64,000 nt of DNA, taken from contig CABZCR010000005.1 in the NCBI GenBank assembly GCA_902524285.1, positions 19,988-83,987 of the forward strand, given 5' to 3'. Made by a program: the position numbers and the translations under genes. Source of the stretch: an uncultured Pelagibacteraceae bacterium. Lineage in GTDB: Bacteria; Pseudomonadota; Alphaproteobacteria; Pelagibacterales; AG-422-B15. Shown here piece by piece: positions 13,656-19,450 of the stretch. Each line of letters starts with the position of its first letter. The first letter of the stretch is position 1. The notes under the pieces are model-generated. The model made no database searches. It had not been told where the DNA came from and was given only the letters and a program-made list of their open reading frames with translations.

Positions 13656-14432
13656 ATGTACAAATATTTCCTACAAGGACTCAGAATAGGTGTCATTTCT
13701 AATTTATTTCTACTTTGGGCCTCTTTAACAATAGCAAACATTAGCAATGACTTATTCCTTGTTGTTCCTGCTATAATTTTAATATCAGTTTCTGCATTTA
13801 GATGTTTGTTTCCTGTAAATTATGCTTCTAAATCAGTGATTATTGACACAGTTCTTTCTTCAGTATTTGTGACACGATTTTTAGTAACCATCGTTGAGGT
13901 GACATATATCTATATGTTTAGTTATGTGCTCAGGGTTATTAATTCTGATCAATATATGCTTGTTGATTTAATTTCTTGGTTAATGGTTATCCAAGTAATT
14001 ATTTCACAGTTTTTTTGTTGGGGTGCAATACTTTTAAAATACGAACGTTTTTACTTTTATGAAGAGTTTGGATGGTTTGTAATTTTTTTAATTAATACGA
14101 TTTTAAGCATAGCCATGCTTAGCTTAGATCTATCAAATGCTCATCATTCACTTATTATTATTAACATAGTTTTTGGAGCTTTATATCTACCATGGCAAGT
14201 GCTGCATTTAAAATCTATAACAAAAAGAATAAATGATAATCCTGAAATTAAGGCTCAAGAATTCAAAGTGGATTTATCAAAAGTTAAAGTGGAATTAAAA
14301 AGCTCAATTAATGATCGAAAATTATCTTTTGAGAGTAACGATTGGGGCGGAGTAGTCGGGATGATGTGGATGTATGGGTATTGGATATTATTTATTCCAA
14401 TATGGATTTTCTATATTATTTTAATTATTTAA
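13656..14432 (+). CDS. Hypothetical membrane protein
   Basis: Long ORF with about seven hydrophobic segments. Confidence 0.5.
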   Translation: MYKYFLQGLRIGVISNLFLLWASLTIANISNDLFLVVPAIILISVSAFRCLFPVNYASKSVIIDTVLSSVFVTRFLVTIVEVTYIYMFSYVLRVINSDQYMLVDLISWLMVIQVIISQFFCWGAILLKYERFYFYEEFGWFVIFLINTILSIAMLSLDLSNAHHSLIIINIVFGALYLPWQVLHLKSITKRINDNPEIKAQEFKVDLSKVKVELKSSINDRKLSFESNDWGGVVGMMWMYGYWILFIPIWIFYIILII

Positions 14433-14577
14433 CTATTCCCCCATATACGCCTAACTCATACATTAGGATACGACATCAAACAGAGGTATAGCAATAAAAT
14501 TATCTATACTTGCATACATACACGTACTGCCTTGTACAGGGTCGTGCAGTAGAGTACGTACACGAAGTAGGCCCGAC
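14433..14577. repeat. livG-3'-end-related repeat, copy A
   Basis: Ungapped alignment by eye to 16014-16156 (about 20 mismatches over about 145 bp); begins with ctattcccccatatacgcct and ends with cacgaagtaggcccga. Confidence 0.85.
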
Positions 14578-14624
14578 CAATGTTCTTTCGCAACACAAAA
14601 TAATTTAATTAATCTCACAAAGTA

Positions 14625-15887
14625 TTAATCATGTGAAAAAGTGCCATCAGGATAAATTTTCTGAGCTTTGTAAAGTATTCTATGATCTTGGCTTAAAGAC
14701 TCTTTTGCACCAATATCTAAAACAACTTCTCCATTTGAGTTTATTTCAAGTAAATGACTTCCAGTAACAACCATAAAATTACCATTTTTCAATTTATCAA
14801 CGTCCCTTATTGTTCCGTATGCCTTACTCTTAGGGGCTCGCCATTGCCAAACGATTTTATCTGTCTCAGGATTAAACTCAATAGCTCTATCGGGATTCCT
14901 TAAACCAACTACTATATTGCCATTTTGAAGTTGTTGAGGCTCGTGAGGATTGCATCCTCTTATCTCTCCAGAGGTCAAAAGAGCTCTTTTTTTCTTGTTA
15001 CAATTAAAAATATATTTTTTTATTATCTCAGCCTCTCTATTAATCCAAATAATTTCTTGAAAATCACGCATGGAGATTAAAAAAGTATCATCTGCAAGCG
15101 CAGTCACACCATTATTGTGTATCCAAGTTTTACCTGAACCAGTAGTTTTTGAATCCGACGCATATGCATCTGCAAATGGAGCAATGTTATGAGTCTTCAT
15201 GCCATCCCAACTCCACACAACGTTTTTATTGTTATCAACTTCGATGATTTTTTTACTTCCTTTAGGACCCCATGCGTAATTTATAAGGACATTTTCGTTC
15301 GATAACTTATCAACATCATGACTTACTTTAGTTTTGTAAGACCAAATTACTTTGCCTTCTCTATCTATCTCATAAACCCCTTTTTCAGCGGCGATTAAAA
15401 TTGTGTTTTTATTTGTGAATTTAGCATCATCTAATCTTCCAAATGAGCTATCCCCATTGTATTGCCAAACGATTTCAGCATTATTAGTAATTTCCACTAC
15501 TCGACCGTGTGAATTTTTTTGAGGGACAACTAGTAAAAATGTTCCTTCCTGAATTTTATTAGCTTCATATACTAATAATTGCAGATCTTTACCAAAAGGG
15601 GAGGTTTTAAAAATCTGAGGATCTTGTTCACTGCTAGCAACATTATTTCCATTTTTCTTCCATATTTTTTTACATGATTGAATAACCTCTTTTGCTTTTT
15701 TTCTTAATGGTTTTTCGTCTGGTCGACCGTTTTCTAAGAATTTGATTTCACTTTCTTCTAAACCATTACTTTTAAAGCATTTCAGAACTTCTTCATTTGG
15801 ATTAGAAAAAATATCCCATTTGCTAGCCTGACTAGGACCAGAATAGAGAATAAAAATAATTGTGATTATTAATTTACAAAATTTCAT
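14625..15887 (-). CDS. Arylsulfotransferase (ASST)-like secreted beta-propeller protein
   Basis: Signal peptide; repeated IVWQYNG / KVIWSYKT / NVVWSWDG / IVWQWRAP blades; THNIAPF, NGNIVVGLRNPDRAIEF. Confidence 0.65.
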   Translation of the reverse strand: MKFCKLIITIIFILYSGPSQASKWDIFSNPNEEVLKCFKSNGLEESEIKFLENGRPDEKPLRKKAKEVIQSCKKIWKKNGNNVASSEQDPQIFKTSPFGKDLQLLVYEANKIQEGTFLLVVPQKNSHGRVVEITNNAEIVWQYNGDSSFGRLDDAKFTNKNTILIAAEKGVYEIDREGKVIWSYKTKVSHDVDKLSNENVLINYAWGPKGSKKIIEVDNNKNVVWSWDGMKTHNIAPFADAYASDSKTTGSGKTWIHNNGVTALADDTFLISMRDFQEIIWINREAEIIKKYIFNCNKKKRALLTSGEIRGCNPHEPQQLQNGNIVVGLRNPDRAIEFNPETDKIVWQWRAPKSKAYGTIRDVDKLKNGNFMVVTGSHLLEINSNGEVVLDIGAKESLSQDHRILYKAQKIYPDGTFSHD

Positions 15888-15966
15888 ATAAATAACTTTA
15901 TTTATAAATTGTTAAGAATTTATTGCATTTTAGTATCATAAAACTATTTGTAAAAAAAAATTTAAC

Positions 15967-16157
15967 AAAGTGGGAGTTAAAAGTTGCAGCTAATTCGTTG
16001 AATAGAAGAATTTACTCCCCCATATACGCCTGAGTCATACGTTGCTGTACAACGTCGAACTTAGGTTTAGCAACAAAATTATCTATACTTGCATTCATAC
16101 ACGTACAGCCTTGTTAAGGGTCGTGCAGTAGAGTACGTACACGAACTAGGCCCGAAT
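15967..16157. repeat. livG-3'-end-related repeat, copy B (fullest copy)
   Basis: aaagtgggagttaaaagttg ... ttactcccccatatacgcctg ... cgaactaggcccgaat; left part matches 18648-18712, right part matches copy A. Confidence 0.85.
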
Positions 16158-16176
16158 ATTACCTTTCTACGTATGA

Positions 16177-16563
16177 TTATTTACAGATACCTCTATCAAC
16201 TATTTGGCTTTCTGCACCAAGTTCCTTTAACATAATTGATACTTCGTACTCTTTTGATTTATTATCAATTTTCATAAAGAAATAAGATAATTTCTCCTCA
16301 ATTGACAAAGCCCAAAAGTCTCCGACCTTGGGACCGTGATATTCTAAATAGTTAACTTTCTCACCATCAATACTTGAATTGTGGTCACTGACTCCAAGTA
16401 ACGCCCTGTAAGAACCTTCCTCTATGGGAATATAAGCTGGATCTAAAATCACAAGGTATTTTGAATCACTATCATCAGAAATACAAAATAATTCCTTTTC
16501 AAAACTTGCATTAGCTACAGTCGTAAAACCTAATATGATTAATATGGAGAGTAGGTGTTTCAT
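16177..16563 (-). CDS. Small secreted protein, unknown
   Basis: ORF track 16177-16587; start re-assigned to MKHLLSIL at 16563, matching the paralogous leader of the next gene. Confidence 0.6.
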   Translation of the reverse strand: MKHLLSILIILGFTTVANASFEKELFCISDDSDSKYLVILDPAYIPIEEGSYRALLGVSDHNSSIDGEKVNYLEYHGPKVGDFWALSIEEKLSYFFMKIDNKSKEYEVSIMLKELGAESQIVDRGICK

Positions 16564-16567
16564 TCTT

Positions 16568-17152
16568 CTATAAGCCAGTTTCGTCAACTAGACATCCATT
16601 GTCATACTTTTTTGATCTATAAGATATTCGAATAGACTGGATATCTTCTTTATTATCGTAATCTAAACTACCACTTAAAAAAATATTATATTTTTCATAA
16701 TCAATACTAAGAGATCTAATTAAATGTTCATCTACATATTCGTCACTTTTAATATTTCCTAGGTCACCATATTTTTCAATTAGCTTAGAAGCCAGATTAT
16801 TATAAACTTCATTTAAATTTATTAATATTTCTGCAGACTCTTCCCCATTGGTGCTACTCGCTGAAACACTTTCAATTCTTCCATCATTACAGGCAGTTGT
16901 AATCGAATACTGGATAAAATGTTTGTTTGGTTCAGGCGGGCTTACTTCAAACACCATTCGATTCATTTTATCGGGATATTCGTCTTCTAACTTACTAAAT
17001 CCAAATTTATTTCCATCTTCATCTTGATAGTGGTAAATTAGATCATTTAATGTAATGCCAAATGGCGTTAAAATAATATTTGCTTTAGGCGCATCCGAGA
17101 TTGCAGCTGTCATCAGACCTAACAAGATTAATATGGAGAGTAGGTGTTTCAT
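16568..17152 (-). CDS. Secreted protein, unknown
   Basis: Signal peptide MKHLLSILILLGLMTAA; intact 194-aa ORF. Confidence 0.6.
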   Translation of the reverse strand: MKHLLSILILLGLMTAAISDAPKANIILTPFGITLNDLIYHYQDEDGNKFGFSKLEDEYPDKMNRMVFEVSPPEPNKHFIQYSITTACNDGRIESVSASSTNGEESAEILINLNEVYNNLASKLIEKYGDLGNIKSDEYVDEHLIRSLSIDYEKYNIFLSGSLDYDNKEDIQSIRISYRSKKYDNGCLVDETGL

Positions 17153-17415
17153 TCTTTTTCATACTTACGTTTAATGACTTCAATATCTGATTTAATGGCG
17201 TCTAAATCGTTTTTTATATCAACAACATCTTCGCCGCTAATACTTTTAGATATCTCTTCCAATCGATCTGATTGATACATCATCATTGCCGTATGTCGAT
17301 CATCAGCGGTAATGATTGCGGCTCTCGTAGTAAGCAAGAACCATATAACCACAACCATAAAAATAATTATGATCAATTCAAAATAGTTGGAAATAAAGTC
17401 CATAATAAATTCCAT
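17149..17415 (-). CDS. Small single-TM + coiled-coil protein
   Basis: Hydrophobic segment ELIIIIFMVVVIWFLL, then charged tail DVVDIKNDLDAIKSDIEVIKRKYEKE. Confidence 0.55.
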   Translation of the reverse strand: MEFIMDFISNYFELIIIIFMVVVIWFLLTTRAAIITADDRHTAMMMYQSDRLEEISKSISGEDVVDIKNDLDAIKSDIEVIKRKYEKE

Positions 17416-17544
17416 TTCAAAATCTTACAGCACATAGTTTAAAAGGCAATTTCGTTTACAACCCCCCTATATATACAGTTAACCCCCGTATTTTAGATTG
17501 ATGGGTTAGGTTGTTCAAAACCCCCTATGTGCTAATATTTCAAT

Positions 17545-17823
17545 ATGAAGAATGTAAAGTGGGAAAATACCAAGACAGTTATAGCATTAGTAATCTTTGT
17601 ATTGATAATCATTGCAATTGGTCTTTCTCTTTACCCTGATACAAACGAAGGTAGAAATGACCTTCAACAAATAGGTACTGCCATTGCTGAATACTCGATA
17701 GGTGATGTTATAAAGTTGGTATGGAATTTTCCAATGAGTATCATCCTCCTAACTTTTTTGGCTTGGTATTTACTTTGGCCTAGGGGTTTATTTAGATTTA
17801 AGAAGGAGAGTAAAAATGACTGA
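17545..17823 (+). CDS. Small two-TM protein, unknown
   Basis: VIALVIFVLIIIAIGLSL and PMSIILLTFLAWYLLWPRG; overlaps next ORF by 8 bp. Confidence 0.55.
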   Translation: MKNVKWENTKTVIALVIFVLIIIAIGLSLYPDTNEGRNDLQQIGTAIAEYSIGDVIKLVWNFPMSIILLTFLAWYLLWPRGLFRFKKESKND

Positions 17824-18055
17824 CTTAGTTTTGGTAGGTTTTATCGTTATCTCAATTATTTTGATTGCTGGTATATATCTTATACGTGATGCAATCGGAC
17901 AAGTTGTTGAAAATCAAGTTCCAATAACACAAAACCAACTAATTTTAATAGGTAAACTTAAAAGGATTGAAGACTCTATTTACAGCGTACAAAGCAATAT
18001 CAAGGAAATAAAAAGTCTTACAGATGATATTGAGCGTAATCAAAGAAGTTTGTAA
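17816..18055 (+). CDS. Small single-TM + coiled-coil protein
   Basis: LVGFIVISIILIAGIYLI, then IEDSIYSVQSNIKEIKSLTDDIE; preceded by aaggagag. Confidence 0.55.
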   Translation: MTDLVLVGFIVISIILIAGIYLIRDAIGQVVENQVPITQNQLILIGKLKRIEDSIYSVQSNIKEIKSLTDDIERNQRSL

Positions 18056-18064
18056 AGTAACGTT

Positions 18065-18262
18065 ATGAAAACATTTTTGTTCAGACTATCTAGACTAATA
18101 AGCGTGATTATGTTTCTACTAATATTATTAATATTTATTGGATTTATTAACAAAGGGATTACTCTTTTTGGTGTTTTTACTATTAGTTTAATACTCTTGC
18201 TGCCAATATTAATCTTTAATTGGGTTTGTTTTGGCAAAATATCAATTTGGATTAACAAATGA
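18065..18262 (+). CDS. Small membrane protein, unknown
   Basis: 65-aa hydrophobic ORF; ATGA overlap with next ORF. Confidence 0.45.
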   Translation: MKTFLFRLSRLISVIMFLLILLIFIGFINKGITLFGVFTISLILLLPILIFNWVCFGKISIWINK

Positions 18263-18507
18263 GCTTTAAAGAAATATTCGATGCTATTGGTAACGCGTTC
18301 AGAGAAGTGGGAGAGTTAATAAGTCTTTTGGGAAGTTTTTTATGGAACTCACCGTGGTACTTTACAGCTTTATTTATTTTGACAGTGATATTTGGGACAG
18401 CATTATTTACCTCTAGTGATGAACATTGGTCGACTAGACTATTAATAGCTGTTTTCTTTTTAGCTTCAGGTTATGGAACTATTAGTTATTGGCCTTCAGT
18501 ATCATAG
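18259..18507 (+). CDS. Small membrane protein, unknown
   Basis: 82-aa ORF with two hydrophobic segments, translationally coupled to the preceding ORF. Confidence 0.45.
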   Translation: MSFKEIFDAIGNAFREVGELISLLGSFLWNSPWYFTALFILTVIFGTALFTSSDEHWSTRLLIAVFFLASGYGTISYWPSVS

Positions 18508-18582
18508 TCAAGTGTCACAACTGCCATATAATCTTACTTAACTTATATAACTGAAAAATTGAATTTATTTGACGTTTAGGAC

Positions 18583-18712
18583 CCGAACTAGGCCCGAATT
18601 AAATAATAAGTAATTGATATTATTTACAAAATTAAAAAAGACACAAAAAGTAGGGGTTAAAAGTTGAGTCTTATCAATGGGTTAGAGGATTTTACTCCCC
18701 CATGTAAGCTTG
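18583..18712. repeat. livG-3'-end-related repeat, copy C (overlaps genuine livG 3' end)
   Basis: cgaactaggcccgaatt (18583-) then aagtaggggttaaaagttg ... ttactcccccat (18692-, encodes AYMGE* of livG on minus strand). Confidence 0.75.
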
Positions 18713-19450
18713 CTTAACATCAGCGTTATTTTTAATTTCCTCAGGTAGACCAGATGCAAGTATCTTACCGTAATTAAGCGCAAGTATACGATCTGAAACT
18801 TTATTTACAAAACTCATGTCGTGTTCAATCATAATTATGGTAATTCCTAATAAAGATTGAATATCCTTTATCCAAAAGCCAAGATCAATTGTTTCCTCAT
18901 TTGTTAATCCTGATGACGGTTCATCTAATAGAAGTAATTTTGGATCAGTGCAAAGAGCTCTTGCAAGCTCAACATTTTTGCGAACACCGTAGGGAAGGCC
19001 GTTTATAAGAGTATCTCGGTAATGCTGAAGGTCTAGGAAGTCAATTACTTCTTCAACTTTGAGCCTGTATTCATGTTCTTGCTTGCGGGCACTGGGTGTA
19101 AAAAATACCTCAGATAAAATATTCGTTTTTTTATAAATGTGTCGTCCAAGAAGTAAATTCTGTAGAACAGTTGCATTTTCAAATAATTCTAAATTTTGAA
19201 ACGTTCTTGCTATTCCAAGCTTTGATATATTGTGAGGCTTAGTTTTTGAGATGTTTTGATTTTCAAAATATATCTCACCTTTGCTTGGCTCATAGATTCT
19301 GCTTATGACATTGAAGAGTGTTGATTTACCTGCTCCGTTAGGACCAATTATTGTAAATATTTCACCTTTATCGACACCAAACGATACATCATTAAGGGCT
19401 TTTACTCCTCCAAATGCTACAGTGATATTTTTTACTTCAAACAAACTCAT
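18692..19450 (-). CDS. livG: Branched-chain amino acid ABC transporter ATP-binding protein
   Basis: GPNGAGKSTLFNVI, ARTFQNLELF, LLDEPSSGL; C-term KQAYMGE. Confidence 0.88.
   Translation of the reverse strand: MSLFEVKNITVAFGGVKALNDVSFGVDKGEIFTIIGPNGAGKSTLFNVISRIYEPSKGEIYFENQNISKTKPHNISKLGIARTFQNLELFENATVLQNLLLGRHIYKKTNILSEVFFTPSARKQEHEYRLKVEEVIDFLDLQHYRDTLINGLPYGVRKNVELARALCTDPKLLLLDEPSSGLTNEETIDLGFWIKDIQSLLGITIIMIEHDMSFVNKVSDRILALNYGKILASGLPEEIKNNADVKQAYMGE

Follow-up and report, generated by a model that had tools for sequence, protein, structure and literature searches.

A seven-gene array at livG in a SAR11 relative is very probably a recurrent, hypervariable module of predicted envelope proteins on a mobile cassette

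Described islands and cassette arrays compared with the livG locus

Additive flexible genomic islands have been described in aquatic bacteria (PMC4033161), and in Methylophilaceae the island fGI-2 has repeated 20-bp tRNA-Lys ends (PMC10872708). The locus analyzed here lies at the 3′ end of livG in the window, by which we mean the whole 64-kb stretch of DNA that was analyzed, from a Pelagibacteraceae genome (G000) of 0.96 Mb that is 69% complete. It resembles the additive islands in having variable cassettes at one chromosomal site, repeated attachment sequences, and presence or absence by strain. However, the livG cassettes target a protein gene at its 3′ end, their left and right ends (LE and RE) are long and conserved, and they carry no integrase or transposase in cis. 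With integron arrays and CALINs, they share the tandem, same-orientation arrangement of small cassettes, the absence of a nearby integrase, and contents whose function is often unknown. In contrast to those arrays, the crossover maps to TAYATGGG rather than to the attC motif G-TTRRRY, and the cassettes bring their own promoter-like module and multigene operons instead of promoterless single genes. An attC-like folding of the RE was considered and set aside, as folding was moderate and inconsistent among REs.

Tycheposons and PICMI are likewise small marine integrative elements with variable cargo, and the relative in genome G062 uses tRNA-Met and carries a tyrosine-type integrase. This relative (L157) was the only element in which a tRNA site was combined with a tyrosine recombinase inside the element; the livG cassettes differ in their site and in the lack of an integrase in cis, and no packaging or satellite genes were seen in them. 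Superinfection-exclusion proteins of prophages and satellites are small transmembrane (TM), periplasmic or lipoprotein products encoded on mobile elements. Small envelope proteins encoded on a mobile element are predicted here as well, although none of the seven proteins matched a described exclusion protein in sequence. By the features tested, the livG cassettes fall outside integron arrays, tycheposons and described defense systems. An open literature search for livG together with integrase and attB found no paper.

Cassette structure and turnover at livG

The seven genes are the cargo of one mobile cassette (approximately 16019 to 18698), the first of two in tandem at the livG 3′ end; the second unit in the window is an arylsulfotransferase (ASST) cassette (approximately 14440 to 16018). 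The insertion site (attB), which is empty in five congeners, is formed by the 3′ end of livG (18692 to 19450, minus strand), a gene for a host ABC-transporter ATPase (Pfam ABC_tran and BCA_ABC_TP_C). Reading away from livG on the minus strand, and with junctions compared at empty and occupied sites, we found the livG-proximal attachment core attL, TACATGGG (18699 to 18706), and the LE of the seven-gene cassette (18566 to 18698), which by blastn against congener islands is 79 to 92% identical in cassettes with other cargo. On the far side of the array lie the RE (16027 to 16153), with 81 to 98.5% identity to the REs of cassettes with other cargo, and the internal attachment core TATATGGG between the two cassettes (16019 to 16026). 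These are followed by the ASST gene (14625 to 15887; PF05935, E=6e-17) as cargo of the second cassette and by the distal core attR, again TATATGGG (14440 to 14447), which leads into the host flank GTTAAATAATTAAAATAATATAG. Congeners retain the next host gene (13656 to 14432, plus strand) whether the site is occupied or empty. The cassette ends, approximately 139 bp for the LE and 137 bp for the RE, are conserved around unrelated cargo, and the cassette bodies share almost nothing else. Copies of the RE were found solely at the livG locus, in 21 of the 60 relatives searched, apart from one weak 29-bp match in G024. Genomes found by pattern search were nearly all labeled Pelagibacteraceae and bear AG- names of the single-cell type, which places the window in a genome of the SAR11 order. 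A contig labeled Saprospiraceae (L108) contains an exact match to the 19-base RE pattern and none of the tested window genes; the contig may be misbinned, or the match may be due to chance.

The junctions define the point of exchange. At the empty site of the five congeners, nothing separates livG from the host flank, and AAGCYTAYATGGG is followed directly by TGAATAGTTAAATAATT. In occupied genomes, the left junction reads AAGCYTATATGGG and then GGAGTAAATTCC, and the right junction reads ATGACTCAGGCG, TATATGGG and TGAATAGTTAAATAATT in succession. The core TAYATGGG is present at the empty, left, internal and distal junctions and is duplicated on insertion. Therefore, the crossover falls inside TAYATGGG. 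The two direct-repeat copies located 3′ of livG terminate in TATATGGGGGARTA, the sequence with which livG itself ends. The preliminary description had placed the array in a repeat-bounded island; this was correct, and the repeats are the attachment sites. Insertion strictly next to livG in a polar manner was rejected, as the position of the ASST cassette, proximal or distal, varies among arrays.

An alternative to site-specific movement is that the cassettes travel through homologous recombination between the conserved flanks. Nearly identical ASST cassettes from different genomes have differing REs, which implies exchange at the ends, and existing cassettes could also move by recombination in their flanks; recombination of divergent genes has been documented in marine prokaryoplankton (PMC12416821). 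Nevertheless, tandem arrays and empty sites alike have exact junctions at the 8-bp core, and each junction carries a new att copy, so a site-specific step is needed, at least at first entry. Homologous recombination is thus an unlikely explanation on its own. Most probably, the cassette entered the livG 3′ end by site-specific recombination at the 8-bp core, an event that rewrites the last bases of livG and leaves the LivG C terminus, AYMGE, unchanged.

The same site differs in content from strain to strain. The genus provided 28 sites that are contiguous from livG to the flank; 5 of them are empty and 23 carry inserts of 0.4 to 4.8 kb with differing cargo, which is the pattern of differing cassettes present or absent at one site that characterizes additive islands. 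A further occupied site, in G021, holds approximately 11 kb and spans two sequence pieces. The cargo includes ASST, HsdR-like and HsdS proteins, an AIPR/AbiU-like protein together with a Dcm-type methylase, a PLD protein and MkoA-like proteins. Autotransporters, a glyoxalase-like protein and an M48 peptidase are encoded there as well, along with numerous small proteins that are secreted or contain TM segments. The restriction-modification, AIPR/AbiU-like and MkoA-like genes were seen in L055, L098, L100 and L192, the last of these (G023) judged from sequence only. Additionally, a recurring ORF of 61 to 63 aa (MLIKFMMATVCLPLISMETGEIVTATQLE...) occurs in L039, L040 and L192 and lies just upstream of the RE in the first two. 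Over 14 congener loci, the ASST gene is 97.8 to 99.9% identical in nucleotide sequence, whereas the adjacent livGMH genes are 75 to 95% identical; in one example pair, ASST is 99.8% identical beside livGMH at 77.4% (77 to 79% in such genomes). Near-identity of ASST next to diverged livGMH therefore indicates transfer between species into the same site, and the spread of ASST at this one site is very recent. The cassette structure, the empty site and the mobility of cargo at the site are thereby established.

The seven-gene array and its recurrent promoter and leader

Seven tightly packed ORFs, three on the minus strand and four on the plus strand, point away from a 129-bp gap (17416 to 17544), as the preliminary description had noted for a gap of about 130 bp. 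On the minus side, ORF C (17149 to 17415, 88 aa) is predicted to have one TM segment and a coiled-coil-like region, ORF B (16568 to 17152, 194 aa) is a predicted secreted protein with a conserved leader, and ORF A (16177 to 16563, 128 aa) is a predicted secreted protein with the same leader and two cysteines. The start of ORF A is probably the ATG at 16563 and not the TTG at 16587. On the plus side, ORF D (17545 to 17823, 92 aa) is a predicted two-TM protein, ORF E (17816 to 18055, 79 aa) combines one TM segment with a coiled-coil-like region, ORF F (18065 to 18262, 65 aa) is a predicted two-TM protein, and ORF G (18259 to 18507, 82 aa) is a small protein with one clear TM segment. The protein classes first assigned, including the signal peptides of A and B, held; for F, first listed as a small TM protein, two TM segments are predicted. 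All seven products are thus predicted to be membrane bound or exported, which points to an envelope location. Overlaps of 4 nt (C/B and F/G) and 8 nt (D/E) and spacers of 4 nt (B-A) and 9 nt (E-F) indicate two tight operons, in agreement with the two short divergent operons originally proposed.

That the small ORFs are spurious or decaying is hardly credible. The coding score of F is indeed the weakest of the seven (codon-usage z-score of 1.5, compared with 2.9 to 5.0 for the other six; the annotated frame was favored for all but F), and most of the ORFs have no homologs. However, seven nonoverlapping ATG ORFs of at least 60 aa cover 94% of the region, whereas 1,000 shuffles under a dinucleotide model gave a mean of 0.7 such ORFs and a maximum of 4, and the observed packing was reached in none of them. 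The overlapping frames are intact, and the promoter and leader are conserved. Moreover, a copy of ORF C in genome G082, of another genus, differs by seven synonymous and no nonsynonymous changes over 64 codons (P ~1e-5). ORF C is therefore under selection, contrary to what would be expected of decaying ORFs. In G082, the first 65 codons of ORF C form an in-frame fusion with the C-terminal portion of a homologue of the window gene at 38 to 775 (L057:7057-7449); this fusion to part of another gene marks the copy as a remnant carried between genera.

Searches by family gave little. No significant family was found for the proteins scanned in Pfam, PHROGs and NCBIfam, with no Pfam or NCBIfam match above the cutoff for any of the seven, and these searches also revealed no enzymatic domain in them; the earlier statement that no families are recognizable therefore stands. 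PADLOC returned no match for B, C and D, the three proteins scanned there, so that no similarity to known defense proteins was found by PADLOC for these three or by Pfam and NCBIfam for all seven. In addition, phmmer against the PDB gave no match, tblastn or pattern searches of phages, plasmids and viral contigs found no homologs, and Rfam detected no riboswitch or RNA element. Single-sequence AlphaFold models of B (pLDDT 35) and A (pLDDT 49) were too poor for a fold search. Matches to ORF A in G023, G031 and G065 (E ~0.008) were disregarded because they were short stretches of a 426-aa frame. Among approximately 400 genomes of the order, no other carries the complete set and only C has a copy, in a concatenated seven-protein search that scored few candidates per genome and may miss rare homologs. 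Hence, the seven sequences do not co-occur as a conserved system.

What recurs is the frame around them. The divergent gap contains a predicted bidirectional promoter module (17413 to 17549) with the core TTTTAGATTGATGGGTTAGGTTGTTCAAAACCCCC, flanked on both strands by −35 and extended −10-like boxes. As read by eye, the promoter on each side is TTGNNN-16-TAAGAT/TAATAT, and TATGTG precedes the −10 box. The core common to the copies, TTTTAGATTGATGKGKYAGGTTGTTCAAAA, occurs once in the window even when three mismatches are allowed, and the promoter core string within the module is TTTTAGATTGATGGGGYAGGTTGTTCAAAA. The gap aligns with the one between the divergent genes of the G062 element (L157) at 83% identity over 141 bp (E=2e-33). 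Two livG cassettes have additional copies between their divergent genes (L043, 85% over 80 bp; L051, 82% over 150 bp), and G082 of genus g8 also contains a copy (L057:5717-5795). The second fixed component is the leader MKHLLSILILLG, whose 35-nt DNA is conserved on the minus strand at the start of ORF B (17118 to 17152) and ORF A (16529 to 16563). Both copies are nearly identical to leaders in L043, L038 and G062; shortened copies occur in L040, L044 and L053, and a 27-nt leader probe matched in only 5 of 398 genomes of the order. The mature parts of the leader-bearing proteins showed no convincing mutual similarity, with one marginal pair (L038 and L157, E ~0.003).

The order of promoter, small TM gene and leader gene or genes is also shared. 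In the window it is C-B-A; in L157, a gene for 57 aa precedes four leader genes; in L043, a gene for 61 aa precedes one for 123 aa; the TM-then-leader order is found in L038 as well and, with shortened leaders, in L040 and L044. The G062 relative is a 5.6-kb integrative element at tRNA-Met (L157:6516-12192) with a 46-bp duplicated tRNA end (att) and a divergent integrase, and its four leader-bearing secreted genes stand in a row with the same promoter module. Thus, the predicted promoter, the leader and the gene order recur with unrelated proteins on mobile elements. The apposition of the two TM and coiled-coil proteins across the gap, emphasized previously, did not recur. A glyoxalase-like cargo gene is common to livG cassettes L052 to L054 and to decayed tRNA-Met elements in which the integrase is cut short (L205 in G028, L206 in G034 and L207 in G004); tRNA-Met elements and livG cassettes therefore exchange cargo.

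A putative mechanism and candidate functions

Overall, we consider it highly probable that the seven genes form a recurrent, hypervariable envelope-protein module on a nonautonomous integrative cassette, a judgment that covers the cassette and the recurrent module and does not extend to function. The conserved bidirectional promoter would drive small TM proteins in one direction. In the opposite direction, it would drive a small TM protein and then one or more secreted proteins whose leader is nearly invariant and whose mature parts are unrelated. Diversity may arise by recombination at the shared leader, promoter and ends. The duplicated core is that of a site-specific element, yet no cognate recombinase was found in cis, and no integrase was seen among the ORFs of any livG cassette. 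A genus-wide PF00589 search returned mainly two core XerC/XerD-like recombinases per genome, on contigs other than those of the livG cassettes, although divergent integrases could escape this profile (the G062 integrase scores only E=0.046). PF00239 serine recombinases were found in two congeners only, on small unrelated elements at other sites. These resolvase-type elements, near tmRNA in G019 (L208) and near tRNA-Leu in G062 (L209), also carry other small secreted or lipoprotein-like genes. We infer that an integrase supplied in trans moves the livG cassettes.

Among the functions weighed, we tentatively place first an envelope-located block of phage entry, similar to superinfection exclusion. 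We favored this possibility because conflict genes occupy the same site and because sequences that turn over while their promoter and leader stay fixed are consistent with an arms race. Nonetheless, the non-defense cargo at livG (ASST, glyoxalase-like, autotransporter and M48 peptidase genes) counts against it. The arylsulfotransferase, glyoxalase-like and M48 peptidase genes of neighboring cassettes could instead suggest envelope modification for nutrient or stress adaptation, as in the metabolic cargo of marine islands. This is somewhat less likely, however, as none of the seven proteins has an enzymatic domain and sequences that change to this extreme degree are more typically found in conflict genes than in metabolic ones. 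The repeated position of a small TM gene directly upstream of a leader-bearing secreted gene, the hypervariable mature parts and the lipobox in one L157 leader gene would also suit a bacteriocin/immunity or toxin/antidote set, in which the secreted proteins hit competitors and the small TM proteins protect the producer. But no bacteriocin or toxin family was matched, the numbers of TM and secreted genes are unequal (5:2 in the window and 2:4 in L157), and no export machinery was seen on the cassette, which makes such a set improbable.

The suspicion of an undescribed envelope or defense-type module, raised in the preliminary description, gained weight from another mobile element that has this layout and promoter but encodes unrelated proteins, and from known anti-phage genes at the site in congeners. 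It is conceivable, though far from assured, that the array belongs to a hypervariable system of envelope conflict in SAR11 relatives that has not been described before. In such a system, a fixed bidirectional promoter and a fixed secretion leader would serve as the frame for swapped secreted and small TM proteins, and the frame would spread on tRNA-Met elements and on livG cassettes moved by an integrase in trans.

The livG cassettes show, at one site in one genus, fast between-species turnover of inserts of 0.4 to 11 kb, including a gene 99.8% identical beside approximately 22% divergence. The defined promoter and leader offer handles for finding further modules, and the livG site is a defined place in which to seek new phage-resistance or competition genes.
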